Positions 5,964-30,338 of a DNA stretch of 64,000 bases are shown piece by piece; position 1 is the stretch's first letter, and each line of letters starts with the position of its first letter. The notes beneath the pieces are model-generated. The model made no database searches, had not been told where the DNA came from, and was given only the letters and a program-made list of their open reading frames with translations. Source of the DNA: Nitrospira sp. CG24D (GTDB taxonomy: Bacteria; Nitrospirota; Nitrospiria; Nitrospirales; Nitrospiraceae); assembly GCA_002869855.2 (NCBI GenBank), contig NEWQ02000009.1, positions 1 through 64,000 on the forward strand, given 5' to 3'. Position numbers and translations under genes: made by a program.

Positions 5964-6195
5964 GACATCCTGTCGGTTCTGTCAGGGCCAGGGAGTGCGA
6001 AAGCCTGCGGGTCCCGCGCATTATGTGAGGGTGACGGGCGGCGCGGCAAGTGGGTCTGAGGCGGACGACCGCATAGAACGGTGGAGGTGGCGAAAATGAG
6101 GGCAGATTCTGACCGGTGTGGGAGCGTGGAAATGGCAGACGGCTAACGGAGTGAGGCAATCAGCCCCACTTTGAGCGCTGAACTGTCCAAGGGGG

Positions 6196-6224
6196 TTGAC
6201 AGAGAATCGGGAGTTCAGTATCGT
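6196..6224 (+). promoter_or_regulatory. Sigma70-type promoter upstream of multicopper oxidase
   Basis: A perfect -35 TTGACA (6196-6201) is followed by a 17-base spacer and TATCGT (6219-6224). It lies in the 393-base divergent gap between the kinase and the oxidase and would give a leader of about 125 bases. The same gap holds TTATATACATA (6280-6290), which also occurs at the promoter of the related copper-site gene at 14521. I see no gene in this gap. Confidence 0.6.
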
Positions 6225-6356
6225 TCTGCCTCTTTTGAAAGGCTCCGATGTCTTCGTGTCGTTCCAAGGCACGAGGGGATTATATACATAGCGTCATTTG
6301 CATTTCGTTTCATGTTTATGGGTTTGTGTCGTTCATCATACCAAGGAGGCCGGTCC

Positions 6357-14520: not shown

Positions 14521-15318
14521 ATGAAGAAGGGTGCGTTATCAGTTGTGTTTGGTGCGGCCGCGGTGGCGTTGGTGGCAGCCCCGCTCTTGGCCAATGCCGG
14601 CGGAACCGTTGCCGGGAAAGTGACCTATGCCGGGAAGGCTGAGCAGAAGGAATTCTCCTTCGCCAAGTTCCCGAACCCCAAGTTTTGCCCGAAGAACCCG
14701 AACAAGAGCTTGATGGATGGCGATAAGCGTTTCCTGAGGACCATCGAAGTGGGCAAGGATGGCGGTCTGAAGGGTGCGGTCGTTGCTGTGGTCGATATCG
14801 AAGATAAGGCGTTCATGGATGGGTACGCGGGCACCGAAGTTGTCGCGGCGTTCTGCGAGTTCCTCCCGTTCGCGGGCGTGGTTGTGAATAACAAGAGCTT
14901 CAAGGTTGAAAACACCGATGCCGATGCGGATGACCCCAAGTCGACACTGGGCGTCCTTCACAATCCGCATAGCTTCGTGGTGAAGGGTTCAAGCTCGGCA
15001 ACCGGTTTCAACATCGGTTTGGCCAAGAAGGGCGATAAGTTGGAGAAGCCGGTCGTGTTCCGTGGCGGCGCGGAAAAAGATGGCTTCTATCGTTTACAGT
15101 GCGACCAGCATGAGTTCATGCAGTCGTTCTTCCTCCCGGTGACGAATGCGCACTTCGCCGTGGTGAAGGATGACGGCACGTTCGAGCTCAAGGATGTCCC
15201 GGCCGGCAAGCACAAAGTGGTGGCCTGGCACCCGTTTGCCGCCAAGGGTAAGAAGGTGGAGTTCGAGGTGGATGTTCCCGAAGGCGGGAAGGCTGACCTC
15301 AAGGCTGAAATCAAGTAA
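14521..15318 (+). CDS. Abundant-type periplasmic cupredoxin-like/regulatory-like protein
   Basis: 265 residues with signal peptide MKKGALSVVFGAAAVALVAAP, cleaved near ANA-GG. It shares its architecture with the 11338 product: an N-terminal GTVAGKVTYAG strand, a His-rich stretch (GVLHNPHSF), a LQCDQHEFM string (Cys-x2-His-x2-Met) and a C-terminal FELKDVPAGKHKVVAWHPF domain. These residues could bind type 1-like copper. A strong promoter, an AGGAGG site at good spacing, Lys-rich composition and a tight terminator suggest a highly expressed monocistronic gene. A small soluble electron carrier or copper-binding protein is a reasonable guess; the sequence does not prove metal binding. Confidence 0.75.
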   Translation: MKKGALSVVFGAAAVALVAAPLLANAGGTVAGKVTYAGKAEQKEFSFAKFPNPKFCPKNPNKSLMDGDKRFLRTIEVGKDGGLKGAVVAVVDIEDKAFMDGYAGTEVVAAFCEFLPFAGVVVNNKSFKVENTDADADDPKSTLGVLHNPHSFVVKGSSSATGFNIGLAKKGDKLEKPVVFRGGAEKDGFYRLQCDQHEFMQSFFLPVTNAHFAVVKDDGTFELKDVPAGKHKVVAWHPFAAKGKKVEFEVDVPEGGKADLKAEIK

Positions 15319-17549: not shown

Positions 17550-18629
17550 ATGTTGCATCGAATGGCATTGCGGGTGCTTCCGAGTCTGAGCCTGGCGGTG
17601 ACGGAAGATGCCGTACGCAAACAGAAGCGTCTCGTCATGTTTGTGCCGGGATTGGTTGCATTCGTGGTCTATCGCCTCGCGAAGCATGTGGTGCCGTTGA
17701 CGGAGCCGCTGGTTTTGCTGGCGGTGAGCAGTCTGGTGGCGATGGTCACCGCACTTCTGGCTTATCGGGTTGGACGATCTGCTTCGTGGACGGTGATCGC
17801 ACGAGAAGACGGGATCCGGATCCTGGCTTGGCTGGCCGGATGGATTGGCGCTGTCTATGGGATCCAGCTCTCGCTCTTGGTGCTCGCACTGTTGTGGGTG
17901 GTGGGGTACAGCTATCTACAGCATCCGGACGGCCCGGCCATGATGGCGATTATTATTTCCAGCACGGCGGTGGCCCGCGATGCGTTTGAAATCGGCCATG
18001 TGCGAAAGCTCGCGGTCCAGGGACGCCCGTTTCTCACCTTCCCGGATGGAGCCGCGTTTCGTACCTTAGTGCAGAGTCGGCTCTCTCAGGTGGGGCCGTG
18101 GGGACTCGTAGGTCTTGGCGTCGGCGGGGTGATGGGACTGTCCGGACATGTGATCGCCGATGGGCAGATGGCTGCGCTGGCTCAATTACTGGGTATCACT
18201 GTTCTGGGCGGTGGCCTCACGCTCTGTGCTTATTTCGGCGGCTTGCGTCCCTCCGCCTCGTGGATGGAGACGCTCAAACGGACGGCTCCGACCGAGTTGC
18301 TGAAATATTGGTGGTGGCCTGGGATGGCCTTTGCGTCCACGTACTATTTGGTCGTGATGGGTCTGGTGCTGTTTGTCGGCAGACAGCCTGGAATGGCGAC
18401 GGGGCAGGCCGTCGTGGGCGGCGCGTTGGTCACGGCGATGATGACGCTGTACGGATATTACCTGGGCCATCGCCGGCAAATTGAAGATGAGCAGGCGCCG
18501 CAGTTGTCGAGCGGGATGCTGCGCTGTCCGTTCGTGATGGGGATTCTTGGCAAGTCGGCGAATGCGTCCGGCAGCATGAGCGGACTAGCCGGCGACATGG
18601 CTTTAAGCAAGACGGGATCAAAGGGGTAG
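17550..18629 (+). CDS. Unrecognised polytopic membrane protein
   Basis: 359 residues with roughly eight hydrophobic helices (about 28-45, 50-72, 88-125, 190-210, 215-235, 265-287, 295-315). A polar loop between them carries ARDAFEIGHVRKLAVQGRP. The C-terminal 40 residues are Gly/Ser-rich and probably cytosolic. I do not recognise the family. It ends 3 bases before the first bd-like oxidase gene, so the two are likely translated together and it may be an accessory subunit or assembly factor. Confidence 0.65.
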   Translation: MLHRMALRVLPSLSLAVTEDAVRKQKRLVMFVPGLVAFVVYRLAKHVVPLTEPLVLLAVSSLVAMVTALLAYRVGRSASWTVIAREDGIRILAWLAGWIGAVYGIQLSLLVLALLWVVGYSYLQHPDGPAMMAIIISSTAVARDAFEIGHVRKLAVQGRPFLTFPDGAAFRTLVQSRLSQVGPWGLVGLGVGGVMGLSGHVIADGQMAALAQLLGITVLGGGLTLCAYFGGLRPSASWMETLKRTAPTELLKYWWWPGMAFASTYYLVVMGLVLFVGRQPGMATGQAVVGGALVTAMMTLYGYYLGHRRQIEDEQAPQLSSGMLRCPFVMGILGKSANASGSMSGLAGDMALSKTGSKG

Positions 18630-18632
18630 CGA

Positions 18633-20513
18633 ATGCGTCGTCGCAGCTGGATGACTGGTTCCATGATCGCAGTGGTGGTGTGTTTCACGATCCTGGCCGC
18701 TCTGTTGCCAGTGATCGGGAATGGGCCGGATCTGTCGTTTGCCGAGGGCACAGCGGACTTATACTTTGGCACACAGGGCACGCCGCAGGGTCCGCCGGCT
18801 CCGGGACCTCATGAGACCGTCTATTCACGGATCGGCTCATTCGATAGCCGGCTCCTGGTCTGGTTCGTGACGCAGCAGCATACCTACTTCGGAGGATTCG
18901 TCCTCGCGCTGCCGTTGTTTTGTGCCTTGCTGGAGTTTGCCGGATTGATTACGAAAAAGCCGGCGTTGTCGCTTCGCTATGACGGCTTGGCCAGAGACTT
19001 GGCGAAGGTTGCCTTGCTGGCCCTCTCGGTGACGGCCGTGGTCGGGAGCCTCATGCTGGCCATGTTCATCTACTTCTACCCGTCGTTCATGAAGTATATG
19101 GGCGGGACGTTCAAGTCCTTCATGCCTGTCTATGCCATCGTATTTGTCGGAGAGGCGCTGCTGCTGATTGTGTATTACTACAGCTGGAATCGGATGGCCG
19201 AACCCGGGTTGAAGTGGATCCACGCCGCGATCGGTATCTTGACGAATATTTTCGGGACGTCATTGCTGTTGCTGGCAAACGCCTGGTCGGCGTTTATGAT
19301 GGCGCCGGCCGGTGTCGATGCACAGGGCCGGTTTCTCGGGAACGTCTGGCATTTGCTCCATTCGGCCCTCTGGAATCCCCTCAACGTCCATCGATTTCTC
19401 GCAGACATTATGTCAGGCGGTGCGGTGGTGCTGGCCTATGCCTGTTACCGGTTTTTCACCAGCAAGACCAGTGAAGAGCGGGCCTATTACGACTGGGTGG
19501 GCTATATCTTTTTGTTCGTCACGGTCTGTGCGTTGCTGCCGATGCCGATTGCCGGCTATTGGCTCATGCGTTCTGTGTATGCCTTCAGTCAGAGCATGGG
19601 CGTGACCATGATGGGCGGGTTGTTGACCTGGCTCTTTGTGGTGCAGGCACTGTTGATCGGTGCGTTGCTTTTGGGAATCAATTACTACATCTGGCAAAGT
19701 ATGGCGCGAATCAAGGGCGGGGAGCGCTACCAGCCGTATTATCAGTTCCTGCTCGGCGTGCTGACGCTGGCACTGTTCATCTGGTTGACGCCGCATACGG
19801 TCCTGATGTCAGGGGCTGAAGTGAAGGCGATGGGCGGGGCACAGCATCCGGTGGTCGGGAACTACGGGGTGATGTCCGCGAAAAACGGCGCGGTGAATGT
19901 GATGATTCTCATCACGGCGCTCAGCTTTCTCTACTATCGGCGCGCCAATCGGACGATGACGGTGTCCTGGGTGAAGACGGGAAATCTTCTGATCGGGACC
20001 TTGTACACGGTGGGTCTTGTGAATGTGATCTGGCTGTCGATTTATGGCTTCTATCTGCCTGCCAAAATCCGAGTCGGGCTGTCCTCGCCGCAGGCCTTTA
20101 CTACGCTGACAGTGATCGTGGCGGGTGTTGTGATCAATCGCCTGATGCTGAGGGGTGCCGTTGTGCACGGTCCGATTCAATGGGGGAAGATTTCTGTTCG
20201 CGGGATGGTGGGGCTCTTCGGCTTGGCGGCGGCGTTTACCTGGGTGATGGGATTGATGGGCTATATTCGATCGTCCGGGCGTCTGTCCTGGCATGTCAGT
20301 GAGCTGATGGCCGATGTGTCCCCCTGGGCCTTTACGCCGGATCTGGAGTTTGCCGCGAAGATGGTCACTCTGAACATGATTGTATTTTGGGGAGCGGTGT
20401 TCGCGCTCTTTTGGATGTGTCAGCGCGGACAGCAACCGGTGATGGGAGAAGAGTTTTTCGAGGAGCCGGCGCCGGCGTTGGCTCCCTCCTCGTCGCAAGA
20501 AGTCTCATCGTAA
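18633..20513 (+). CDS. Cytochrome bd-like oxidase protein (CydA-related), copy 1
   Basis: 626 residues. A signal-anchor-like N-terminus precedes a membrane core of more than ten helices. CydA-like features include the first His in VTQQHTYFGGFVLAL (His83), a Glu in the EALLLIVYYYSW helix at the position of CydA Glu99, LLLANAWSAFMM (compare CydA LANGWMQ) and a WHLLHSALWNPLNVHR segment. The Q-loop of classical CydA is not evident, and no CydB gene follows. It is a clear paralogue of the 24064 product. Nitrospira genomes are reported to carry such divergent bd-like proteins as proposed terminal oxidases. Whether this copy reduces oxygen or serves another reaction is unknown. Confidence 0.8.
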   Translation: MRRRSWMTGSMIAVVVCFTILAALLPVIGNGPDLSFAEGTADLYFGTQGTPQGPPAPGPHETVYSRIGSFDSRLLVWFVTQQHTYFGGFVLALPLFCALLEFAGLITKKPALSLRYDGLARDLAKVALLALSVTAVVGSLMLAMFIYFYPSFMKYMGGTFKSFMPVYAIVFVGEALLLIVYYYSWNRMAEPGLKWIHAAIGILTNIFGTSLLLLANAWSAFMMAPAGVDAQGRFLGNVWHLLHSALWNPLNVHRFLADIMSGGAVVLAYACYRFFTSKTSEERAYYDWVGYIFLFVTVCALLPMPIAGYWLMRSVYAFSQSMGVTMMGGLLTWLFVVQALLIGALLLGINYYIWQSMARIKGGERYQPYYQFLLGVLTLALFIWLTPHTVLMSGAEVKAMGGAQHPVVGNYGVMSAKNGAVNVMILITALSFLYYRRANRTMTVSWVKTGNLLIGTLYTVGLVNVIWLSIYGFYLPAKIRVGLSSPQAFTTLTVIVAGVVINRLMLRGAVVHGPIQWGKISVRGMVGLFGLAAAFTWVMGLMGYIRSSGRLSWHVSELMADVSPWAFTPDLEFAAKMVTLNMIVFWGAVFALFWMCQRGQQPVMGEEFFEEPAPALAPSSSQEVSS

Positions 20514-20532
20514 AGAAAGGGTCGAAACGCCT

Positions 20533-21189
20533 ATGAATGGTCGGATGGTGTGGAGTGTCGTGGCTCTGGCGAGTATGGCGTTGTGTGTTGGAACCGTCAT
20601 CACTAAGTTAGTCTATGCAGAAAGCCAAGTGTTGGTGTTGGAGGATTTTCAAGGGAAAGAAGCCGATGGTTTTCCCTCGTCCTGGGATCACGAGAACCAG
20701 CGCAGCCATTCCAAGGGTCGCGACGCGTATAAAGTGCAAACTGAAAACGGCGTAAATTTTTTGTCCGCCAAAGATGCCGGACAGCGTATCAAGAAGAAAA
20801 AGATCGACTGGGATCCGAAGGCCTATCCGGTGCTCACGTGGCGCTGGCGTTTGCTGAAGGCTCCGGCTGGAACGGATCAAATCGCGGCGATCTATGCCTC
20901 ACTCGATACCGATTTGTTATTTATCCCGGTGTTTACCAAGTATGTCTGGAGCGGGACCAAGCCGGAAGGGACGCTGACGGAAGGCGGCATGTTCAGCGGG
21001 TCTGAGATCGTCATGCAGAGCGGGACGAAAGACGTCGGCCAGTGGTTTGAAGAGCGTGTGAATGTCTATGAGGACTTTAAGCGCATTCATCAACATGAGC
21101 CGGCGCCCAAGGCCTGGGGCATTTCGATCATTGCCGCGCCTGGGGTTGAGATTGATTTCGGCTCGCTGGTGGCCAGCCCCGCAAAGTAA
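20533..21189 (+). CDS. Exported DUF3047 protein
   Basis: 218 residues with a signal peptide (1-30). The mature part shows the DUF3047 pattern: an N-terminal [17 protein letters not shown], then [11 protein letters not shown], a central IYVWSG-like strand block ([12 protein letters not shown]) and a C-terminal [17 protein letters not shown]. The fold is predicted to be a beta-sandwich like carbohydrate-binding modules. The function is unknown. The gene lies 19 bases after the bd-like gene, in the same operon. Confidence 0.75.
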
Positions 21190-21208
21190 TGGAGGAGGCA
21201 CCGTTGTC

Positions 21209-21607
21209 ATGACTGAGGCTGGAGATCGGGGCCTTCCCACCAGAAAGCTCGTGGACATCGTGTTTGGTGTGGTGGTGATGGGGACCGTGGGCGCGTTGAT
21301 CGGCCTCATCATGGGCAGTGAATTCATGCCGTTGGCGACAGGGATTGGGCTGGTGATGGGCGGCGTCGTGGGCTTTCTTGGCGGCCGCCGGTTCTTGATC
21401 AGTATCTTAGTCGGAACGGTTTTGGGTGGTGCGTTGGCCTGGTTGTTGGCCGGACCGGAACGGATCTCGTATGGGGCCGGTGCCGGGGCGGCCATGGGGG
21501 GATTTCTTGGGGTCCAGGTTTCGATGTTGCTGGATATGCGCGCGGCCCGCAAGGCCGAAGCGGCGAGTACATCCGTTGAAGGAGTGGCTCAGGACGCTCG
21601 CCGATAG
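21209..21607 (+). CDS. Small glycine-rich membrane protein
   Basis: About 132 residues. The ATG at 21209 follows GGAGGAGG. Four short hydrophobic segments are rich in Gly ([56 protein letters not shown]), a glycine-zipper pattern that favours tight helix packing. I recognise no family. Position between the DUF3047 gene and the SUMF1-fold genes suggests a structural part of the same membrane assembly. Confidence 0.6.
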
Positions 21608-21643
21608 GGGTGATGTCAGATTTTTTCGGGTGCTTGGAGACAT

Positions 21644-22561
21644 ATGGAAAACAGGGGTGTACTGATCGGGTCAATCGTCTTTGTGTTCGGGTCGTTCATT
21701 CTCCTGATCGCAGGGCTGGTCTATGAGTCGTATAAGGCCAAGCAGATGCGGGAATTGGCCATGAGCATACAGACGGAATCCCGCCCGGTCGCGGAGAAGA
21801 CGGTTACGCAGGATTTCTCAATGTATAAGACGAGGATCGGCGACGAAGGGCGTGAAATGGTGCAGGTGCCTGCAGGGCCGTTTACGATGGGGAGTAACGA
21901 TGGGGATCCGGATGAGGCTCCTGAACGACAGGTGTTCTTGAAGGGGTTCTTTATCGATCGAAACGAAGTGACGCAGGATGAGTATCTGCGTTTCGCCAAG
22001 ATGACCAAGCGCGCGTTCCCGAGGATCGAAGTCTTCGAGGATGACCAGTCGAAAGTCTTAAAGCCTGAATTGGCGGCAATGAGCGTCTCCTGGGACGATG
22101 CGGTCGCCTATTGCAAGTGGGCCGGTAAGCGATTGCCGACAGAGGCTGAATGGGAAAAAGCCGGACGCGGGGAGGGGAAGCGAAAGTACCCTTGGGGTGA
22201 CAAGTTCATGAATGGTATGGCCAATGTGGATGGGCCGGAGGATGGATACAAGTATCTTGCGCCTCCCGGCTCATTTGAAGCCGGCCGGAGTCCCTACGGA
22301 TTGCACGACATGACAGGCAATGTCGCCGAATGGGTCGCGGATACGTACGACGAGCATTACTATAAAAAGGGTGGTTATCGTGACCCGAAAGGGCCCGATG
22401 AAGGTGATCTGAAAGTGGTGCGCGGCGGCTCATGGAGAGAAACAGAGCAAAACGCCAGGCTCTCCAAGCGTTTCGCCGCCAAGCATTGGCGGAATGACAT
22501 CACGATCGGAATTCGTTGCGCCAGCGATTTGGAGCCGAGCGGCGACGCGGCCGGTCAGTAG
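21644..22561 (+). CDS. Membrane-anchored SUMF1/FGE-fold protein, copy 1
   Basis: 305 residues. One N-terminal helix (5-26) anchors a periplasmic domain of the formylglycine-generating-enzyme fold: MVQVPAGPFTMGSNDGDPDEAPERQV, DRNEVTQDEYLRFA, VSWDDAVAYCKWAGKRLPTEAEWEKA, YPWGD, GLHDMTGNVAEWV and VVRGGSWRE. The catalytic Cys pair of true formylglycine-generating enzymes, expected after RGGSW, is absent here, so sulfatase activation is unlikely. SUMF1-fold proteins without that pair act as structural or maturation proteins in several complexes. The gene is followed 5 bases later by a paralogue. Confidence 0.8.
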   Translation: MENRGVLIGSIVFVFGSFILLIAGLVYESYKAKQMRELAMSIQTESRPVAEKTVTQDFSMYKTRIGDEGREMVQVPAGPFTMGSNDGDPDEAPERQVFLKGFFIDRNEVTQDEYLRFAKMTKRAFPRIEVFEDDQSKVLKPELAAMSVSWDDAVAYCKWAGKRLPTEAEWEKAGRGEGKRKYPWGDKFMNGMANVDGPEDGYKYLAPPGSFEAGRSPYGLHDMTGNVAEWVADTYDEHYYKKGGYRDPKGPDEGDLKVVRGGSWRETEQNARLSKRFAAKHWRNDITIGIRCASDLEPSGDAAGQ

Positions 22562-22566
22562 CGGTC

Positions 22567-23514
22567 ATGCTGGAAACAAGATTCAAGGTCGTGTTCCTTA
22601 TCGTGGTCCTGCTGTTCGCGGCCATGCCGATTATTGCCATCCTTCGTGGGACGACTACGACTCCCTTTGAAGAGGCTGATCCCGGCTCTCAGGTTTCGGT
22701 GCAGCCTGGCGACGTGCCCGTTGCAACCGAGGCGCCCATAGATGAAGAGATGATATTGATACCTGCCGGGACCTTTCTGCGTGGGACGGATGCGGGCGGG
22801 CTTGACGAAAGGCCGCCCAGAGAGATCTTCCTTGATGCATTTCAAATCGACCGCTATGAAGTGACCAATTCGCAGTATGGGCAGTTTGCTGCGGCCACCG
22901 GTCACCGGAAGGCGGGGCCTCCGTCACGTTACGCCAAGAATGTTTCCAAAATGCGCGGCTCGAATCAACCTGCCATCTATGTGTCATGGGACGATGCCGT
23001 GGCCTACTGTCAGTGGAAGGGGCGGCGGCTTCCCACGGAGGCGGAATGGGAAAAGGCTATGCGAGGTGCGGACGGCCGTCTGTGGCCTTGGGGAAATACG
23101 GAACAGCCTGATGGGGCGAACTGGGCGCGAGTCAACGACGGATTTGAGGCGAGTGCTCCTGCGGGATCATTCAAGGCAGATATGAGTCCCTACGGTGTCA
23201 TGGATGGGGCAGGAAATGTCATGGAATGGGTCCAGGACTGGTATGCAGAGGGGTATTACAAGGAATCGCCCGACCGAAATCCGCCGAGCCCGGAGTATGG
23301 CGTCTATCGAGCAATGCGGGGGGGGGCATATACGACGACTGGGGGCGATCTTCGCCTCACCAGCCGAAGCAAAATGGTCCCTGATTTTCGTGATGAAACG
23401 ATCGGATTTCGGTGCGCGATGTCAGCGGAAAATGGCGGAGGTGAGACGGCGAATCACAGCGAGAAATCTATAGAAAATCAAAGTAGTAGAGAATCAGAAA
23501 CACGGCCAAAATGA
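22567..23514 (+). CDS. Membrane-anchored SUMF1/FGE-fold protein, copy 2
   Basis: 315 residues, with one anchor helix (5-28) and a SUMF1-fold domain (about 55-295) matching copy 1: MILIPAGTFLRGTDAGG, DRYEVTNSQYGQFAA, VSWDDAVAYCQWKGRRLPTE, WPWGN, GVMDGAGNVMEWV, AMRGGAYTTT. It also lacks the catalytic Cys pair. The start ATG at 22567 lies 5 bases past the copy 1 stop. Its 3' end overlaps a small minus-strand gene. Tandem duplication within an oxidase gene cluster suggests the two products pair with each other or with different cytochrome partners. Confidence 0.78.
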   Translation: MLETRFKVVFLIVVLLFAAMPIIAILRGTTTTPFEEADPGSQVSVQPGDVPVATEAPIDEEMILIPAGTFLRGTDAGGLDERPPREIFLDAFQIDRYEVTNSQYGQFAAATGHRKAGPPSRYAKNVSKMRGSNQPAIYVSWDDAVAYCQWKGRRLPTEAEWEKAMRGADGRLWPWGNTEQPDGANWARVNDGFEASAPAGSFKADMSPYGVMDGAGNVMEWVQDWYAEGYYKESPDRNPPSPEYGVYRAMRGGAYTTTGGDLRLTSRSKMVPDFRDETIGFRCAMSAENGGGETANHSEKSIENQSSRESETRPK

Positions 23515-23572
23515 TATTGACAACCATACCGGCCAAAACTATAATGTCGAAAATTTTTGAGTTTTTTGTCAT
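23468..23572 (-). CDS. Single-helix miniprotein (34 aa), antisense
   Basis: MTKNSKIFDIIVLAGM begins a 34-residue protein that is almost entirely one membrane helix (residues 8-31), ending in LYYFDFL. AAGGA lies 6 bases upstream of the ATG at 23572. The 3' end overlaps the last 47 bases of the SUMF1 gene in a convergent arrangement. Its composition and size resemble small accessory subunits of terminal oxidases such as CydX or CcoQ, but sequence alone cannot show this. It is the only minus-strand gene in the 6-43 kb region, which lowers confidence. Confidence 0.5.
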   Translation of the reverse strand: MTKNSKIFDIIVLAGMVVNIILAVFLILYYFDFL

Positions 23573-23690
23573 GGGTTTCCTTGTGTTGTTATGGCCGCCA
23601 GCTAAGGAATTTTGAATAACACACAGGTTTTGGGGTGTCAAGGAATTCGCAGACTTCACTCACTATTTCGAGCATGGAAGGGGAGGCAAG

Positions 23691-23813
23691 ATGGCGACGG
23701 CAACAGCGGACAGTGATTTGATGGTTAAGGTCGGCAAGATGATTTTCTACATCACTTGCGCGGTGGGTCTGTGGTTTTTCTATTGGTTTGCTGGTATTCA
23801 GTGCCCCTGCTAG
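23691..23813 (+). CDS. Single-helix miniprotein (40 aa) upstream of bd-like oxidase
   Basis: A 40-residue protein beginning MATATADSDLMVKVGKM, with one membrane helix (about 17-33, MIFYITCAVGLWFFYWF) and a C-terminal CPC. GGGGAGG lies 5 bases before the ATG. It is in the same direction as the oxidase genes and next to another miniprotein, so a small subunit of the bd-like complex is plausible. Nothing in the sequence identifies a known family. Confidence 0.6.
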   Translation: MATATADSDLMVKVGKMIFYITCAVGLWFFYWFAGIQCPC

Positions 23814-23874
23814 TTCAGGGCCGCTGCGACTAAGACGATTGTGAAATTTTGATGGATCTGATGAGGAGGAGATG

Positions 23875-23997
23875 ATGGGGCAGAATATTCTGTATGGGAT
23901 TATCTCTGTGGCGATCTGCGTAGGATACTTCCTGATGGTTGACCATTTTCTGATGGATATGCAGGGCCTGGATTTCTGGTACATGTTCCGCAAGTAG
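23875..23997 (+). CDS. Single-helix miniprotein (40 aa) directly before bd-like oxidase
   Basis: MGQNILYGIISVAICVGYFL begins a 40-residue protein with one helix (3-21) and a polar tail ending DFWYMFRK. AGGAGG lies just upstream; an ATG at 23872 is the alternative start but would leave only two bases after the ribosome-binding site. It ends 66 bases before the oxidase start and is the most likely of the three miniproteins to be an oxidase subunit. Confidence 0.62.
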   Translation: MGQNILYGIISVAICVGYFLMVDHFLMDMQGLDFWYMFRK

Positions 23998-24063
23998 TTT
24001 GGCTCTGCGTTTGATTTAGGGCTTGTGATGAATCTTTTTCGTAATGCATTAAGGAGGTATCCC

Positions 24064-25974
24064 ATGGGTCTTGTAACCCGGAAGAAAGTGTTCTCAATCA
24101 TGGCGCTCTGCGCGATGGTTGGCCTCCTCCTGTTTCCTGTGGTGGTGTCGCTTCCGTCACTGGCAATCGGTGCGGATGCGCCTGACGCGGCAAAGAAGGA
24201 GGATGCAAAGGTTGAGAAGGGGCGTGACGTCTATTATAAGACGGAAGGCATCGTGGTTGGAGCGCCTGCCCCGAAGACGGTTGACGGCCCGAAGGATTAT
24301 CCCCGGTATAACTTCGAGAGCCGCGTGCTCCTCTGGTTCGCGAATCAGCAGCATCTCTACTACGGCAGCTTCGTGCTCGCCGTTCCAATTTTCTGCATGG
24401 TCGTCGAATTCATGGGGGTCGTGACAAAGGATAAGGCGTTGGCGAAGCGGTACGATCAGCTCGCCTATGACTTTATTAAGATCAGTCTTACGGCATACTC
24501 GCTGACAGCCGTTCTCGGGGGTATTCTGATCTTCACCTTCCTCACGCTCTATCCTGCATTTTTTGGATATCTATCCAGCATTTTCCGTCCAGTCATGCAC
24601 ATCTACGCGTTGATGTTCGTGGCTGAGAGCGGTACCCTCTACATCTACTACTATGGTTGGGACAAGATGAAAGAGGGGTTCCTGAAGTGGATCCATTTGA
24701 GCATGTCGGTGATTTTGAACATCATCGGGACCTTGCTCATGTTCCTGGCGAACTCGTGGATCGGATTCATGATGTCGCCGGCCGGTGTTGACGAGCAGGG
24801 GCGGTTCCTTGGGAACATCTGGCACGTTCTTCATACGGCATTGTGGAACCCGCTCAATCTCCATCGCATCCTTGGCAACATGGCCTTCGGCGGTGGTGTC
24901 GTTGCGGCTTACGCGGCGTATAAGTTCCTGGCGTCGAAGACCGACGAGGATCGCGCCCACTATGATTGGATGGGCTACATCGCGATGGCGCTCGGTGTCG
25001 CGTTCTTGATCCCGTTGCCGTTTGCCGGATACTGGCTCATGCGCGAGGTCTATGCGTATCGCCAGCAGATGGGCATCACGCTCATGGGTGGATTGTTGGC
25101 CTGGCTCTTCATTATTCAGGCAACCATGATCGGCATTTTGTTCCTGAGCACAAACTACTATTTGTGGCAGGCGATGGGACGGATGCGCGGAGCGGAAAAG
25201 TATCAACGCTACATCAAGTATCTGGTGTTTATTCTCGCTTGCGGCTACCTAGTTTTTATTACGCCGCACACGATGGTCATGACTCCGGCGGAGTTGAAGG
25301 CCATGGGCGGACAGCAGCACCCGGTGTTGGGTAACTACGGCGTTATGTCCGCGAAGAACGGCGGCATCAACGTCATTATTACCACCACGGTGTTGAGTTT
25401 CGTGTGGTATATGCGTGGGAACAAGGTTTCGACGGTCTCTTGGTCGAAATTTGGGAACATCTTTATGGGGTGTTTCTTCTTCTTTGCCTACGTTAATATT
25501 ATTGGGTTAGCGATTTACGGATACTACATCCCGGCTAACGTCCGAGTCGGACTGTCTGTTCCGCAGGTGGCGACCACGCTCTCCTGCCTCTTCTTCATGT
25601 TTGCGTTAAACAGCGTCATGATGAAAGGCGCCAAGCAGATGGGGGCGATCGAGTGGGGTAAGATTTCTGCCCGCTCGCAGTACGCTCTGATCATGTTGGC
25701 GACTGCATTTACTTGGATGATGGGCTTGATGGGCTACATTCGCTCATCGGTCCGCCTCTTCTGGCACGTGAATGAAATTATGCGAGACAATTCACCGTGG
25801 GCCTATACGCACACGGTCGGTTTTGCCGCGAATATGATTTCCTTCAACGTCTTATTCTTCTGGATCAGCATTCTCTTTGTGTTCTGGCTTGGTAGTTTAG
25901 CGGCAAAGAAGGTTCCAGCAGGTGAGAAGGCAGGAGTTCCTGGTAGTGCGCCGCAGCCGGCTGGTAGCCACTAA
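24064..25974 (+). CDS. Cytochrome bd-like oxidase protein (CydA-related), copy 2
   Basis: 636 residues. The ATG at 24064 is set by AAGGAGGT 5 bases upstream; an earlier ATG lacks such a site. An N-terminal signal-anchor (10-36) precedes a multi-helix core. His97 (ANQQHLYYGSFVLAV) matches the first CydA haem ligand and Glu188 (FVAESGTLYIYYYGWD) matches Glu99. MFLANSWIGFMM matches the CydA LANGWMQ helix. The second ligand is less clear: the segment WHVLHTALWNPLNLHR offers His254, His257 and His267 one helix turn before the CydA His186 position. Later His residues occur in TPHT and GGQQHPVLGNYG. No CydB gene is nearby; instead three cytochrome genes follow. It is probably the catalytic core of a divergent terminal oxidase. 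Confidence 0.82.
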   Translation: MGLVTRKKVFSIMALCAMVGLLLFPVVVSLPSLAIGADAPDAAKKEDAKVEKGRDVYYKTEGIVVGAPAPKTVDGPKDYPRYNFESRVLLWFANQQHLYYGSFVLAVPIFCMVVEFMGVVTKDKALAKRYDQLAYDFIKISLTAYSLTAVLGGILIFTFLTLYPAFFGYLSSIFRPVMHIYALMFVAESGTLYIYYYGWDKMKEGFLKWIHLSMSVILNIIGTLLMFLANSWIGFMMSPAGVDEQGRFLGNIWHVLHTALWNPLNLHRILGNMAFGGGVVAAYAAYKFLASKTDEDRAHYDWMGYIAMALGVAFLIPLPFAGYWLMREVYAYRQQMGITLMGGLLAWLFIIQATMIGILFLSTNYYLWQAMGRMRGAEKYQRYIKYLVFILACGYLVFITPHTMVMTPAELKAMGGQQHPVLGNYGVMSAKNGGINVIITTTVLSFVWYMRGNKVSTVSWSKFGNIFMGCFFFFAYVNIIGLAIYGYYIPANVRVGLSVPQVATTLSCLFFMFALNSVMMKGAKQMGAIEWGKISARSQYALIMLATAFTWMMGLMGYIRSSVRLFWHVNEIMRDNSPWAYTHTVGFAANMISFNVLFFWISILFVFWLGSLAAKKVPAGEKAGVPGSAPQPAGSH

Positions 25975-25998
25975 CCATCTTATTGAGCAACTGGCTCA

Positions 25999-26026
25999 GG
26001 GGGAAGGCCATGCAGCGCCTTCCCCC
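25999..26026 (+). promoter_or_regulatory. Stem-loop between oxidase and cytochrome genes
   Basis: A perfect 10-bp stem, GGGGGAAGGC with GCCTTCCCCC, encloses an 8-base loop. No U-tract follows, so it is more likely an mRNA-processing or stability element, or an attenuator, than a full terminator. The next gene starts 25 bases downstream. Confidence 0.55.
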
Positions 26027-26051
26027 GGTGTAGCCGCAGGAGGTTAAAACC

Positions 26052-27362
26052 GTGGGCGATTTGATTAATCAAGCGCTAGAGATGGGGTGGCCGGCACTGG
26101 CGTTGCTGGCCGGCCTCTTAGTGTATTTCCAATTCTCCATCAGTGATCCCGTTGCGAAGAAGCGGGCCACGCTCAAGACGATCATTGGGATGGCGGCGAC
26201 GCTTCTCTTGTTTATTGCGATCGTCAACTACACGACCAGTTTTTACGGCGAGAACAGGCTCATGCCAGTGTCGCTCGTCATGATTACCGCTGCCGCATTC
26301 ATGGTGGCGATCTATTTCCCAAATTTCGGGGCCCTGCTCAAGATTGGCGGATTGATGTTTTTTGTGGCCGCCTTTCTTTCAGGTTATGGGAACTGGTTGC
26401 CGCAGGTCGAAGGTGGCTTTCCTCCGAAGGAAGAGAAGCTTGAGTATAGCGGTATGACGGCGCAACAGCTGGCCGATGAAGGCGAAAAGATTATTTTCGG
26501 CGGAGTCGGGAAGAATAAAGAGCAGGGTGCCATCGGCAAGGGCCAGTGTCCGCTGTGTCACGCATTCCATGCTGGTATGTTGGGTGAACGTGCTCCCAAT
26601 CTGAACGGCTTGCCCGAGCGCGCTGGCAAAGAGCGTCTTGAAGACCCGAAATATTCGAAGGGCAATGCTGCCAAGCGTGACTATGCCCAAAAGGAAGCGT
26701 TCCCTGGATCAGGCACTGCGGAAAATGGCCAGGAGTATATTGCTGAATCGCATGCCTGCCCAAATTGCTACGTGGTGGCTGGTTTCGGAGTGAAGGGAAC
26801 GAACGATAAAGAAAGCCCAATGCCATCTATCCATAAGCCGCCGATTTCCCTCTCTTTGCCAGAATTGGCTGCAGTGGATACGTGGCTCTATGTCCGTGAG
26901 GGGCGTGACGCTCCGTCATACGAGGACATTGTAAAGTCATACGAGAAGTTTATTCCTGAGGCAGACCGCCCGAAGCAGCAAGAAGAAAAGACGGGCCCAG
27001 CCAGTGCGCTTCTAGCTGATGGCACTGAGCCAGTTGATCAGATTTTTGCAAAAGCCCAGTGTGTATCTTGTCACACAATTCCTGGAATCCCGGGTGCTAA
27101 TGGGACGATCGGTCCTAAGCTGGTTGAAGGGACGAATGCCCCAGGCCGCATCAAGGATAAGGATTATAAGGGAACGGCTAAGTCGACCTCTGACTACATC
27201 ATGGAGTCGATTGTTGCGCCGAGTGCCTATGTGGTAAAGCCATTCCCTGATAATACGATGCCCAAGGTGTTTGGTCAGAAACTCAGTGCGGGAGCGCTCA
27301 AGAAGATTGTGGATTATCTCTCGCAAGTCTACGAGGGAAAAGAGCCTCCAAAGATTTCGTAA
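26052..27362 (+). CDS. Membrane-anchored dihaem c-type cytochrome
   Basis: 436 residues. The GTG at 26052 follows AGGAGGTT. Three or four N-terminal helices (14-30, 43-60, 75-112) anchor a periplasmic part with haem c sites CPLCH (166-170) and CVSCH (337-341). A third motif, CPNCY (236-240), has the Cys pair but Tyr in place of the haem-binding His. Downstream Met residues (TMPKVF) could serve as axial ligands. Gene order after the bd-like core suggests that it passes electrons to the oxidase. Confidence 0.83.
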   Translation: MGDLINQALEMGWPALALLAGLLVYFQFSISDPVAKKRATLKTIIGMAATLLLFIAIVNYTTSFYGENRLMPVSLVMITAAAFMVAIYFPNFGALLKIGGLMFFVAAFLSGYGNWLPQVEGGFPPKEEKLEYSGMTAQQLADEGEKIIFGGVGKNKEQGAIGKGQCPLCHAFHAGMLGERAPNLNGLPERAGKERLEDPKYSKGNAAKRDYAQKEAFPGSGTAENGQEYIAESHACPNCYVVAGFGVKGTNDKESPMPSIHKPPISLSLPELAAVDTWLYVREGRDAPSYEDIVKSYEKFIPEADRPKQQEEKTGPASALLADGTEPVDQIFAKAQCVSCHTIPGIPGANGTIGPKLVEGTNAPGRIKDKDYKGTAKSTSDYIMESIVAPSAYVVKPFPDNTMPKVFGQKLSAGALKKIVDYLSQVYEGKEPPKIS

Positions 27363-27401
27363 CTGAGCTGTGAATCTTTTTAGACCAAAGGGAGTGAACT
27401 C

Positions 27402-28439
27402 ATGAAAGCATTGATGTCAGTCGGCGCGCTGGTAGGGGCTATTGCGCTCCTCCTGCTAGTCGGGATGATCCTCGACGTCGTCCCGTCGAATACCGTCCGC
27501 TTAGTCGAAGGCTACATGCCTATCCAAATGTTGCTTGAGGTGGCTTGCTTCGTAGCCGGCTTTACCGGATTGAGCTACATGCTCAGTTCAATGGGTATGG
27601 CGGTTCCCCGGTTCTGGCAGGGAATCGGGTTCTGGGCGTTTGTGTTGCTCTATTTGAAGTTCCGCGTCTATCCGCCCATCCCGTTCAGCGTTCGGGCCAT
27701 GTATGGGACGGTGTCTCTCGTCGCGGTCTTTATGTGGGTATCCGCGAACGAGGACGACTGGAAGAAGTTTAAGCAGCCGATCATGAACGTCCTCGATGCC
27801 CAGAGTGGAGCGAACAAGATGCTCCGCTACGCGTATCTCGTTCTGATTCCAGTCCTTGTTGGTTTCACCTCCTTCAATGCGATGAGGCCAAAATCTGAAG
27901 AGCCGGTTGAGTTGCGCACGGTGCATCCGGCTCCTCCGGCCAGCACGAAAGTTCATGGTAAGACCTATACCCTCCAGACCTCCCAGAATCCGTACCGTGT
28001 CAACCCGGAAGGGAAATTTGACCAGGAATATAGCAACAAGCTGATCGTCGAGCAGGGCATGGGGCGCTTGATGGCTCCTAACGCCAATCCGTTTGATGAA
28101 AAGAACCAGGGCTATCTGAAGTACGTGAAGGAAGGCGGAGAAATCTTCTTCCAGAACTGTCACTTCTGCCACGGCGACAATTTGAATGGTCGTGGTCTGC
28201 ATGCGTTTGCGTTCAACCCGATCCCTGCAAACTTTACCGATCCAGGCACAATCGCTCAGCTCCAGGAGACGTTCATTTTCTGGCGCGTCGCCAAGGGTGG
28301 TATTGGATTGCCGAACGAAGGTTTCCCCTGGGCCTCAGTTATGCCGCCATGGGAACAGCATTTGACCGTCGATGAGATCTGGAAGGTCATCTTGTTTGAG
28401 TATTGGCACACGGGTTACTACCCCAGGACTTGGGACTAA
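27402..28439 (+). CDS. Membrane-anchored monohaem c-type cytochrome
   Basis: 345 residues with about five N-terminal helices (5-25, 40-62, 72-90, 98-114, 142-160) and one haem c site, CHFCH (253-257), in a C-terminal cytochrome domain. MPPW near residue 315 supplies a likely axial Met. GGGAG lies 8 bases before the ATG. The layout, with membrane helices first and a single haem domain after, resembles the membrane cytochrome subunits of quinol-oxidising or alternative complexes. It is the third gene of the bd-like cluster. Confidence 0.83.
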   Translation: MKALMSVGALVGAIALLLLVGMILDVVPSNTVRLVEGYMPIQMLLEVACFVAGFTGLSYMLSSMGMAVPRFWQGIGFWAFVLLYLKFRVYPPIPFSVRAMYGTVSLVAVFMWVSANEDDWKKFKQPIMNVLDAQSGANKMLRYAYLVLIPVLVGFTSFNAMRPKSEEPVELRTVHPAPPASTKVHGKTYTLQTSQNPYRVNPEGKFDQEYSNKLIVEQGMGRLMAPNANPFDEKNQGYLKYVKEGGEIFFQNCHFCHGDNLNGRGLHAFAFNPIPANFTDPGTIAQLQETFIFWRVAKGGIGLPNEGFPWASVMPPWEQHLTVDEIWKVILFEYWHTGYYPRTWD

Positions 28440-28489
28440 ATAGTCCTCTGGCATAACGGATAACCCTGGATTACGACATGAGGAAAAAA

Positions 28490-30268
28490 ATGATGAATAC
28501 GTCGATGGGCAAAAAAGCAGGGATCGTCCTTGCCTCGGCCTTTGGACTGGCGCTTTTCTCTGCCGGTCCGTTGGTCCTCACGGCATCTGCTGAAGATGTT
28601 CCGCAAGGGTTTAAGAAGGGTGAGTTGGCGCCAGAGCCGGCGGCAGACATGATTGAGGCCGGGAAGCGCGTCTACTTTACCAAGTGCGTGTGGTGTCATG
28701 GAGTCGATGGAGCCGGCGACGGGCCTGGCGCCGACCGACTCTGGCCGCGTCCCCGTAACTTCAACCAGGGGACGTTCAAGATCCGGCACACCGCTAGCGG
28801 TGAATTGCCATTGTTCGATGCCAAAAAGCCAACTCCTGGGCAGAACGATCTTTTTGAGACGGTTACCCATGGGTTGCCTGGTTCGGCAATGCCTTCCTGG
28901 GAAGGTATCTTGACCGAAGAGCAACGTCTTCAGGTGTTATCGTTCGTCACCACACAGTTGGTGAAGGATCGGAAGTTTACCGATAAGCAGTCAGAGTCCC
29001 AGACGATTCTTCAGCTGGCCGATTTGAAGCCCAAAGAGGCGACAGAGGAAAGCAAGAAGAGAGGATCCGAGCTGATCGTTGAAAAGAAGTGCGTGGAATG
29101 TCACGGCATGGAAGGCCGTGGCGATGGTAACGCCTTCAACCTGAAGGATGACTGGGGTTTCTCGATCCAGCCAGCCAATTGGCACAAGTGCTGGAACTTC
29201 CGTGGAAGCCGGCAGGACCCGTACAATGTGAAAAACATTTTCAGGACCTTCTCGACCGGAGTCAATGGTACGCCGATGCCGTCGTTTGCAGACAGCACCA
29301 GCGTCGACGATCGTTGGGACATTGCCAACTTCGTGAATTCATTGTGCGAAAGAGACCCGGAAGGGAATCCGCTCTCAATTGATCCACAGACGGATAAGCC
29401 GAAAGTCAATTTCGTGCTTCCATCGAATCCGGTGGAAGGTGAGATCCCAATGGATATGGAGAACGAAGCCTGGCAGAAAACCCAGAAGCGCCTTATCGCC
29501 ATGGGTGGTCAGATCACGCATAAGCCGCGTAACTTCGTGAACCGGATCGATGATCTCTGGGTTCGGTCGCTGTATAACGAAAAGTCGATTGTGTATTTGA
29601 TCGAGTGGGACGATCGTACCAAGAGTGTGGCCGAAGGGAAATTGCCCTGGGCTCCGACTCAGGTAAACATTGATGTGAAGGAGCAGGATCCGAAGACGGG
29701 TGAAGAAGGATCCATTGCCGCACATCAAAATAATTACGCGGTCTATAATGACGCGGTCGCGATTGAAACGCCGGTCAAGTGGCAGGATCTTCCTGCTCCG
29801 ATTAAGCCGCGGTACCTCTTCGGAAGCAATGAGCAATATCCCGTGGATATTGTGAAGTGGGAAGCTGACGGATCTTTCCGGGCCTTCAAGGGAACCGGTT
29901 GGGATAAGGATTTCGAAGAGCGCGATAGCTATGAAGAGAATCTGAAGGTTCTCAAGTCTGAATGGAAGAATGGTCGTTGGTACGTCATGCTTCAGCGTCC
30001 AGTCGGGAACAAGAAGGACCAGGATTATGACGAGGACACGCTGTTCGAAATGGGGAAATACATCCCGACCGTGTTCTTTGCCTGGGATGGCCACAACGGT
30101 GATGCAGGACGTAAGATGGCCGTCTCGGCTTTCTACTACACGTTCATGCAGCCGCCGACGCCCCGTGAAGTGTATATCTATCCGTTCGTCATTGCCGGCG
30201 GGATCGTGCTGTTGGAAGCCTGGGTTCTGACGCGTCGCGCAAACAAGCGGAAGGGCAAGACGCTCTAA
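28490..30268 (+). CDS. Dihaem cytochrome c fused to an NXR-gamma-like haem b domain
   Basis: About 592 residues: a signal peptide (1-34), haem c sites CVWCH (66-70) and CVECH (201-205), then an ethylbenzene-dehydrogenase gamma (EB_dh) type beta-rich domain (about 290-550), then a C-terminal helix (563-583) and a Lys/Arg-rich tail. The segment SIVYLIEWDDRTKS parallels LGLRVEWNDQTKN in the NXR-gamma-like protein at 47938. I chose ATG 28490 because GAGG lies 6 bases upstream; 28478 and 28493 are alternatives. EB_dh domains bind one haem b through Met and Lys in molybdoenzyme gamma subunits. Fusion to two haem c domains would allow electron transfer from haem b to haem c beside the bd-like oxidase. 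Confidence 0.8.
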   Translation: MMNTSMGKKAGIVLASAFGLALFSAGPLVLTASAEDVPQGFKKGELAPEPAADMIEAGKRVYFTKCVWCHGVDGAGDGPGADRLWPRPRNFNQGTFKIRHTASGELPLFDAKKPTPGQNDLFETVTHGLPGSAMPSWEGILTEEQRLQVLSFVTTQLVKDRKFTDKQSESQTILQLADLKPKEATEESKKRGSELIVEKKCVECHGMEGRGDGNAFNLKDDWGFSIQPANWHKCWNFRGSRQDPYNVKNIFRTFSTGVNGTPMPSFADSTSVDDRWDIANFVNSLCERDPEGNPLSIDPQTDKPKVNFVLPSNPVEGEIPMDMENEAWQKTQKRLIAMGGQITHKPRNFVNRIDDLWVRSLYNEKSIVYLIEWDDRTKSVAEGKLPWAPTQVNIDVKEQDPKTGEEGSIAAHQNNYAVYNDAVAIETPVKWQDLPAPIKPRYLFGSNEQYPVDIVKWEADGSFRAFKGTGWDKDFEERDSYEENLKVLKSEWKNGRWYVMLQRPVGNKKDQDYDEDTLFEMGKYIPTVFFAWDGHNGDAGRKMAVSAFYYTFMQPPTPREVYIYPFVIAGGIVLLEAWVLTRRANKRKGKTL

Positions 30269-30302
30269 GCGCACTCTGTACGTGAGTGGCTGAGCAGCGA
30301 AT

Positions 30303-30338
30303 GAAGGGGGTGGGGTAACCCACCCCCTTCGTATTTTT
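30303..30338 (+). terminator. Intrinsic terminator ending the oxidase cluster
   Basis: A perfect 12-bp stem, GAAGGGGGTGGG with CCCACCCCCTTC, is closed by GTAA (GNRA type) and followed by GTATTTTT. Confidence 0.92.

Follow-up and report, generated by a model that had tools for sequence, protein, structure and literature searches.

A conserved Nitrospira gene cluster for a candidate cytochrome-c-fed, bd-like respiratory complex without CydB

Introduction

Among nitrite oxidisers, Nitrospira are the most widespread. How do electrons pass from nitrite to O2 in these organisms? This route is still unsettled, and the terminal oxidase of these bacteria is still termed putative in the literature. A window of 64,000 nucleotides of Nitrospira sp. 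CG24D (the whole stretch of DNA that was analysed) bears on this question; a sequence-only reading of it had proposed a novel terminal oxidase complex, composed of a bd-like core without CydB, membrane cytochromes and an EB_dh fusion, which would take electrons through haem c from an NXR-type donor.

The cluster is, in fact, already known as bd-like_3/alt_NxrC_2 of Nitrospira (PMC6606698; PMC3578206; PMC8026999), and the window locus has its gene set, its gene order and its nearby duplicate; since the cluster, the duplicate and the idea of an NXR-to-oxidase electron transfer have all been published, the proposed novelty does not hold. According to the main-text description of the N. moscoviensis cluster (Mundinger et al. 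2019, PMC6606698), the gene set is identical, bd-like_4 is close by, and there are two membrane cytochromes c and an alt_NxrC with two haem c motifs, as here. There is no essential difference, the small genes and the promoter reported below being absent from that main-text description. When N. moscoviensis grows on nitrite, this cluster is one of its 40 most highly transcribed gene sets.

Results and Discussion

Borders of the transcription unit and two small membrane-protein genes

All the features of the window listed here lie on the forward (+) strand. The four genes starting at 24064, 26052, 27402 and 28478 were confirmed at their positions as co-directional, and the single terminator expected to close them was found as a strong intrinsic terminator with a 14-pair stem (30301–30332), which ends the unit downstream of the 28478 gene. 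On the opposite side, a TTGACA-17-TATAAT promoter (23517–23545) matches the consensus at 12 out of 12 positions, its chance expectation in the window being 0. The 29-mer spanning it (with two N) recurs in 32 fetched loci from the families f1–f3, the spacer being kept as well, and the match is likewise 12/12 in the loci L053 and L055. The transcription unit is thus bounded by the promoter at 23517 and the terminator at 30332, and it begins earlier than the sequence-only reading had placed it; that reading had overlooked the promoter and two small ORFs.

These ORFs, smORF1 (23691–23813; MATATADSDLMVKVGKMIFYITCAVGLWFFYWFAGIQCPC) and smORF2 (23875–23997; MGQNILYGIISVAICVGYFLMVDHFLMDMQGLDFWYMFRK), each code for a 40-aa protein with a single transmembrane helix. 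Both are present in every primary Nitrospirales bd3 locus and are under purifying selection, with a dN of about 0.02–0.19 versus a dS of about 0.6–1.9 for smORF1, and a dN of 0.10–0.35 versus a dS of 1.1–2.1 for smORF2. Relatives of smORF1 occur in several non-nitrifying Nitrospiria, and smORF2 was recovered at the equivalent position of a Sulfuricaulis MAG (E = 0.001) with a model built without that sequence; the small genes were looked for and not found in Nitrospina, NC10, anammox bacteria or the C17 operon described below. The Rfam search of the window gave zero matches, so that the 0.5-kb gap ahead of the CydA-like gene is explained by the small genes and not by a known riboswitch. The conserved promoter and the two tiny membrane-protein genes are additions to the published cluster. 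By analogy, the two proteins are comparable to the CydX-like small subunits of other oxidases and may represent candidate subunits.

The CydA-like core

The first large gene (24064–25974) is preceded by a strong Shine-Dalgarno sequence (AAGGAGG), which is kept in relatives, and codes for a CydA-like OR-N protein of 636 aa (bd-like_3, hereafter bd3). The Pfam domain Cyt_bd_oxida_I (PF01654) matches its N-terminal part only (2.6e-20), a profile match to 9r2g_A was retrieved at 3.3e-6, and the best Foldseek matches of its low-confidence model are all cytochrome bd subunit I; the protein thus belongs to the cytochrome bd superfamily (CydA fold). The AlphaFold2 model is poor (mean pLDDT 49), because the alignment held only the window proteins and the related loci. 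A haem-copper oxidase was rejected, the first match to a cytochrome c oxidase fold being at rank 42 with E = 6.

The equivalents of E. coli CydA H19, E107, H186 and M393 are kept in bd3 and in its anammox relatives, and this strict conservation of haem-ligand positions argues against a silent core. E99 and E445 are not kept in bd3, as in all the OR-N members aligned here; E445 is replaced by Leu in the bd3 alignment, and the canonical haem-ligand set H19/H186/M393/E445 is therefore incomplete. In the quinol loop, where the alignment is weak, K252 is changed to R and E257 falls at a gap. Position 418 is occupied by Gln in bd3, by Tyr in anammox bacteria and by His in proteins of the type presumed to be the terminal oxidase; the oxidase of this cluster has been reported to carry a Gln where His is conserved, and this site presumably corresponds to position 418.

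With quinol-loop residues that are not conserved and cytochromes c encoded alongside, the protein falls within the OR-N family, which, as papers citing Murali et al. 2021 define it, comprises CydA-like proteins without a quinol site that are probably cytochrome-c-linked. Compared with canonical cytochrome bd (CydAB, CydX), the window complex shares the N-terminal CydA fold and most haem-ligand equivalents, as well as, by analogy, small single-helix partners resembling CydX; it differs in lacking CydB, the quinol-loop residues, E99 and E445, and in having c-type haem subunits.

Absence of CydB and conservation of the locus

CydB (PF02322) gave no match in the entire 90%-complete genome, while the control search was positive in 10 out of 14 genomes; the description of the core as lacking CydB is thus borne out genome-wide. 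Nor did PF02322 match in any of 20 genomes with relatives, so that no canonical cydAB pair, which would have spoken against the proposal, was found beside the core, and the possibility that the CydB of a canonical bd oxidase had moved elsewhere was rejected. The CydA-like protein has a match in every one of 99 genomes from the order, and the gene order, whose conservation the sequence-only reading had suggested checking, is retained in all 15 primary loci inspected; taken together, these data indicate that the observation is not due to chance. The donor-haem genes also keep a constant order across Nitrospirota, Nitrospinota, NC10, anammox Planctomycetota and the Sulfuricaulis MAG.

The candidate cytochrome subunits

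The second large gene (26052–27362) codes for a membrane cytochrome c (Pfam) with four N-terminal transmembrane helices according to hydropathy, which harbors two CXXCH motifs plus a degenerate one (CPNCY). It is related to the Kuenenia dihaem cytochrome Kustd1711 (PDB 7zs0–7zs2, E about 1e-9), whose haems lie at about +350 mV; by analogy, such a potential would be suited to nitrite-derived electrons. The third (27402–28439) encodes a membrane monohaem cytochrome c (Pfam; one CXXCH, CHFCH), which shares 33% identity (6e-48) with the corresponding protein of the parallel C17 operon.

The last product, alt_NxrC_2 (28478–30268), is a fusion of a dihaem cytochrome c with an EB_dh domain and ends in a C-terminal transmembrane helix. 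Pfam recognises two cytochrome c domains, with two CXXCH motifs, and EB_dh (7.2e-9), and the dihaem part matches PDB 6h5l_B (E = 1e-39). The EB_dh domain, which is the one expected of an NXR gamma subunit, is related to NxrC-like proteins that this genome encodes.

Relationship with other CydA-like operons

The genome also harbors the parallel four-part operon (C17b, cytochrome c, cytochrome c and EB_dh), in which C17b is the presumed terminal oxidase. By resemblance, C17a/C17b may be assigned, putatively, to the NIDE0901-like OR-N2 + OR-N1 CydAA' terminal oxidase of Nitrospirales (PMC12342949). In the C17 operon, position 418 is His (THHP) and not Gln as in the window operon, the cytochromes are shorter and the EB_dh protein has no c haems. 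In the anammox nxr cluster of Kuenenia (kustd1712-1709; PMC6423088, PMC3578206, PMC11791136), the CydA-like, dihaem, monohaem and dihaem genes follow the same order as here and adjoin nxr genes; the small genes were not found there, and the CydA-like protein is nearer to the C17b/NC10 branch and carries Tyr418, whereas the window protein has Gln418.

Relationship with NXR

The operon adjoins nxr genes in the Sulfuricaulis MAG as in anammox bacteria, and in some Nitrospirales an extra CydA-like copy lies directly upstream of nxrA; these data are in favour of a link to NXR in nitrite oxidisers. The whole operon was also found in Nitrospiria described as non-nitrifying in the literature, and NxrA was not matched, at the strict threshold, in any of the 12 class-level genomes. 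This search yields false negatives, several Nitrospirales expected to have NXR being unmatched at the same threshold, and the argument thus rests on the 12/12 class-level genomes together with the published statement. This, in turn, implies that NXR is not an obligate donor: a strict tie of the cluster to NXR was dropped, and the operon does not occur only with NXR, as would be expected if alt_NxrC_2 were an NXR gamma subunit. The suggested electron entry through haem c agrees with the co-encoded c-type haem donors and the non-conserved quinol loop, and an NXR-type donor with the nxr neighbourhoods, but not as an obligate partner. The complex would thus have been recruited by nitrite oxidation and not invented for it.

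Possible function of the complex

We give about an even chance to the unit encoding a cytochrome-c-fed OR-N membrane respiratory complex that, in aerobes, most likely reduces O2. We infer that its six candidate subunits (the CydA-like haem-b core, the membrane dihaem and monohaem cytochromes c, the dihaem-c/EB_dh protein and the two single-helix proteins) assemble into one complex. A high-potential donor in the periplasm, which would be NXR in nitrite oxidisers and a different one in Nitrospiria that do not nitrify, would deliver electrons to the c haems and the EB_dh haem; from there they would proceed to the b haems of the core, with O2 as the most likely final acceptor in aerobes and quinol not being the donor. 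The potential of the Kustd1711 haems supports this reading. Moreover, Gln-type bd-like proteins are present in cultured aerobic Nitrospinae that lack haem-copper oxidases altogether, and neither COX1 nor CydB was matched in nine relatives at the class level that have the CydA-like protein (the whole operon having been read in eight); in one of these genomes (G203), the CydA-like gene of the operon is the only one found. The parallel C17b operon and the high transcription also speak for it. Against O2 reduction, anammox bacteria, which do not live on O2 respiration, keep the gene order beside nxr, and Gln418 (Tyr in anammox bacteria) stands in place of the His of the presumed terminal oxidase type; the absence of E99 and E445, the poor structure model and the view of other OR-N proteins of Nitrospira as its main oxidase also weigh against it.

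The anammox conservation and the missing His418 would be explained if the complex were a cytochrome c:quinone oxidoreductase run uphill, using the proton motive force to pass nitrite electrons via the c haems to the quinone pool and so supply CO2 fixation. Such reverse electron transport has indeed been proposed for this cluster, but the task is generally attributed to complex III, bd3 conserves none of the known quinone sites, and O2 reduction in the Nitrospinae without haem-copper oxidases would be left unexplained; we therefore regard this possibility as unlikely, if worth considering. The kinship of EB_dh to NXR gamma, the nxr adjacency with the copies upstream of nxrA, and Gln418 would also suit an electron conduit or membrane anchor of NXR, whose c haems and EB_dh relay electrons to soluble cytochromes or to the C17a/C17b oxidase, the CydA-like core being structural or silent. 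Such a role is quite improbable given the conserved haem-ligand positions and the retention of the whole operon in Nitrospiria without detectable NXR. Lastly, canonical bd oxidases of other bacteria are reported to detoxify O2 and NO, and an enzyme protecting from either, and not serving as the main respiratory oxidase, would fit the anaerobic anammox bacteria; the very high expression in steady growth and the dedicated high-potential donors suggest instead a main respiratory role, and we consider protection very improbable.

We tentatively propose, at somewhat less than an even chance, that a six-subunit OR-N respiratory complex, two of whose subunits are single-helix proteins not recognised before, was ancestral to the Nitrospiria and did not depend on nitrite oxidation, that "alt-NxrC" is an electron-relay subunit of the oxidase and not an NXR subunit, and that NXR was plugged in later. 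The route from nitrite to O2 can be tested with the help of the subunit list, the borders of the unit, the relatives that have this operon alone and the change between His and Gln at position 418.

The upstream block

A second CydA-like protein, bd-like_4 (18633–20513), is 49% identical to that encoded at 24064 and forms a separate, duplicate branch in the tree. It lies in a conserved upstream block of its own (17550–23514), recognised from Pfam and gene order in relatives, together with a membrane protein (17550), a DUF3047 gene (20533), a small membrane protein (21062) and two FGE-sulfatase-domain proteins (21644 and 22516). The span 18633–30268 originally delimited for the complex includes this second CydA-like gene, the DUF3047 gene and the two FGE-sulfatase genes. 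At either of the two f4 loci, bd-like_4 gave no match; in the families f1–f3, it is kept at the same position, about 5.4 kb upstream. Further upstream, a putative blue-copper-like protein (14521–15318) carries a C-x2-H-x2-M motif, and its relatives adjoin the cydA-like gene in anammox bacteria and also occur close to nxr genes.

Organization and Conservation of the bd-like Operon

The region 24064-30268 harbors four genes on the forward strand, coding for a CydA-like membrane protein (bd-like_3, at 24064; 636 aa), two membrane cytochromes c, the first dihaem (at 26052; 436 aa) and the second monohaem (at 27402; 345 aa), and alt_NxrC_2 (28478-30268; 596 aa), in which a dihaem cytochrome c is joined to an EB_dh domain and a helix closes the C-terminus; they are followed by a 14-pair terminator (30301-30332, +). 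The genome (3.4 Mb, 90% complete) carries four CydA-like genes and one weak COX1-family match, and no CydB match was retrieved anywhere in it, in agreement with the sequence-only reading, which had described an operon lacking CydB. The second CydA-like protein, bd-like_4 (18633), is 49% identical to bd-like_3.

The bd-like_3 protein found a match in all 99 genomes of the order, and the order CydA-like, dihaem c, monohaem c, alt_NxrC, whose conservation had been proposed as a check, is kept in 15 out of 15 primary loci inspected. The same arrangement is seen in loci of Nitrospina, NC10, and Scalindua, as well as in a Sulfuricaulis MAG and a further 13 anammox loci, some of which are truncated at the end of the contig or locus. 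Within the reach of the stretch, bd-like_4 and its block are kept upstream in 13 of the 15 primary loci, all from families f1-f3. A tandem pair of FGE-sulfatase-domain proteins with N-terminal helices lies at 21644-23514, the second directly 5' of the operon, also in most non-nitrifying relatives.

The four genes and the terminator stand, but the unit starts further upstream than the sequence-only reading had seen, where a promoter and two small genes were found. The perfect promoter TTGACA-17-TATAAT (23517-23545, +) directly follows the stop of the preceding gene, and its 29-mer, including the spacer and leaving two variable positions aside, is identical in 32 fetched loci from families f1, f2, and f3, with a chance expectation of none in the window; it is absent from both f4 loci. 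About 70 bases around it (23480-23550) are near-invariant in six genomes, beyond the needs of a -35/-10 pair, and include GCCAAAA twice, about 30 bases apart; for these reasons, a regulator site may be present here.

The two small genes (23691-23813 and 23875-23997, both +), each of 40 codons and encoding one hydrophobic helix, sit between the promoter and the CydA-like gene at all primary Nitrospirales loci of bd-like_3. Their changes are mostly synonymous (dN/dS roughly 0.02-0.25), relatives occupy the same place in class-level Nitrospirota, and a model built without the Sulfuricaulis sequence recovered the second gene in that MAG (E = 0.001). They gave no Pfam match and were not found in the Nitrospina, NC10, and anammox loci, nor in the operon on C17, another contig of this genome. 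We propose that they encode small subunits.

A Parallel Operon and the CydA-like Types

The C17 operon has the same order: C17b (a CydA-like protein 41% identical to bd-like_3), membrane cytochromes c of 207 and 239 aa, and a 279-aa EB_dh protein. The four pairs match, in order, at 1e-151, 9e-10, 6e-48, and 3e-8, and the operon fits the published bd-like_2/alt_NxrC_1 cluster (PMC6606698). The simplest reading would be that the CydA-like protein, two cytochromes c, and EB_dh protein form one module, and that "alt_NxrC" is part of this oxidase module rather than of NXR, the nitrite-oxidising enzyme.

Aligned to E. coli CydA, bd-like_3 keeps H19, E107, H186, and M393, with Tyr for E99 and, weakly given the poor alignment of the C-terminal half, Leu for E445; none of the quinol-loop residues is conserved. 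OR-N, a part of the cytochrome bd superfamily without the quinol site, is an accepted family. Among sequences showing the motif, the C17b type, NC10, and Sulfuricaulis have His at position 418, whereas the bd-like_3 and bd-like_4 types have Gln and the anammox proteins Tyr; the motif was seen in neither of the two phylum-level f14 sequences. A Gln for one His in the oxidase of the bd-like_3/alt_NxrC_2 cluster was reported earlier. In a tree of 22 sequences, whose long branches leave finer placement unsure, C17a (also CydA-like), C17b, NC10, anammox, and Sulfuricaulis form a clade that excludes bd-like_3, bd-like_4, and the Nitrospina protein. In the anammox CydA-like proteins (L071, L072, L080, L086), the two conserved halves are separated by an inserted stretch of about 65-70 residues that contains additional hydrophobic segments.

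The novelty suggested for the complex is not sustained: the cluster, its duplicate, and the NXR-to-oxidase idea are already published (PMC6606698, PMC3578206, PMC8026999), as is the cluster's conservation in Nitrospina and anammox bacteria. Five points found no counterpart in the main texts consulted and may be new: the pair of small genes, conservation of the promoter, presence of the operon in non-nitrifying Nitrospiria, an explicitly described parallel operon, and the distribution of residues at position 418 across families.

Relationship with NXR

The proposed NXR-type donor is upheld in part. In Brocadia, nxrC and nxrA lie about 4 and 8 kb past the operon end, and nxr genes also neighbor the operon of the Sulfuricaulis MAG. 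Moreover, an extra CydA-like copy lies about 400 bases 5' of nxrA in G079 (L050) and G087 (L052), and the start of the same arrangement is visible in G090 (L048), cut by the contig end; these copies are 73-74% identical and lack cytochromes and small genes. In L050, a response-regulator gene and an nxrB-like gene come after nxrA. On the other side, the CydA-like protein is present in twelve class-level genomes (Nitrospiria), in eleven of them at 60-66% identity, and ten were read across the entire operon; none of the twelve is among the 81 genomes having an NxrA match, a search with false negatives in Nitrospirales, so that single absences fall short of proof. A 2025 paper describes UBA2166 and other Nitrospiria outside the nitrite-oxidising families as lacking nitrite-oxidising proteins. 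Therefore, nitrite oxidisers probably use NXR as a donor, although it is not an obligatory one.

The Sulfuricaulis sp. S40-5 isolate (a gammaproteobacterial MAG; L122/L141) carries the four-gene operon and both small genes alongside genes for NxrA (49% identical), an NxrC-like, and a TorD-like protein, a gene content suggesting that nitrite oxidation may occur in Acidiferrobacteraceae. NC10 bacterium CSP1-5 (L138/L107) has genes for two NxrA-like proteins (58% and 41%); its four-gene operon lies on a separate contig and encodes a CydA-like protein of the His418 type, but with TPR instead of TPH. In the window, 38241-59003 encodes a sensor kinase with a sigma-54 response regulator, a ferredoxin, a TorD-like chaperone, two NxrC-like EB_dh proteins, a radical SAM protein, an NHL protein, and two multihaem cytochromes, resembling NITMOv2_3614-3631, a gene set that has been described in print as diagnostic for nitrite oxidation. 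The C-x2-H-x2-M protein at 14521-15318, without a Pfam family and conserved beside anammox cydA-like and nxr genes, is probably a blue-copper-like electron carrier.

Possible Function

Kustd1711, a relative of the dihaem protein, has haems near +350 mV, a potential that would suit nitrite-derived electrons. As for the acceptor, oxygen is favored by the Gln-type bd-like proteins of cultured aerobic Nitrospinae lacking haem-copper oxidases and by nine relatives at class level that carry the CydA-like protein (whole operon read in eight), in which neither COX1 nor CydB was matched; in G203 the operon's CydA-like gene is the only one seen. Gln418 and the fact that anammox bacteria, which are anaerobic, conserve the operon argue against oxygen, and we consider the chances of oxygen reduction by this complex to be about even. 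Proposals by earlier authors are reverse electron transport towards quinone or a role in anchoring NXR. A very long ORF (6171-11198; 1675 aa) has multicopper oxidase domains over part of its length only.
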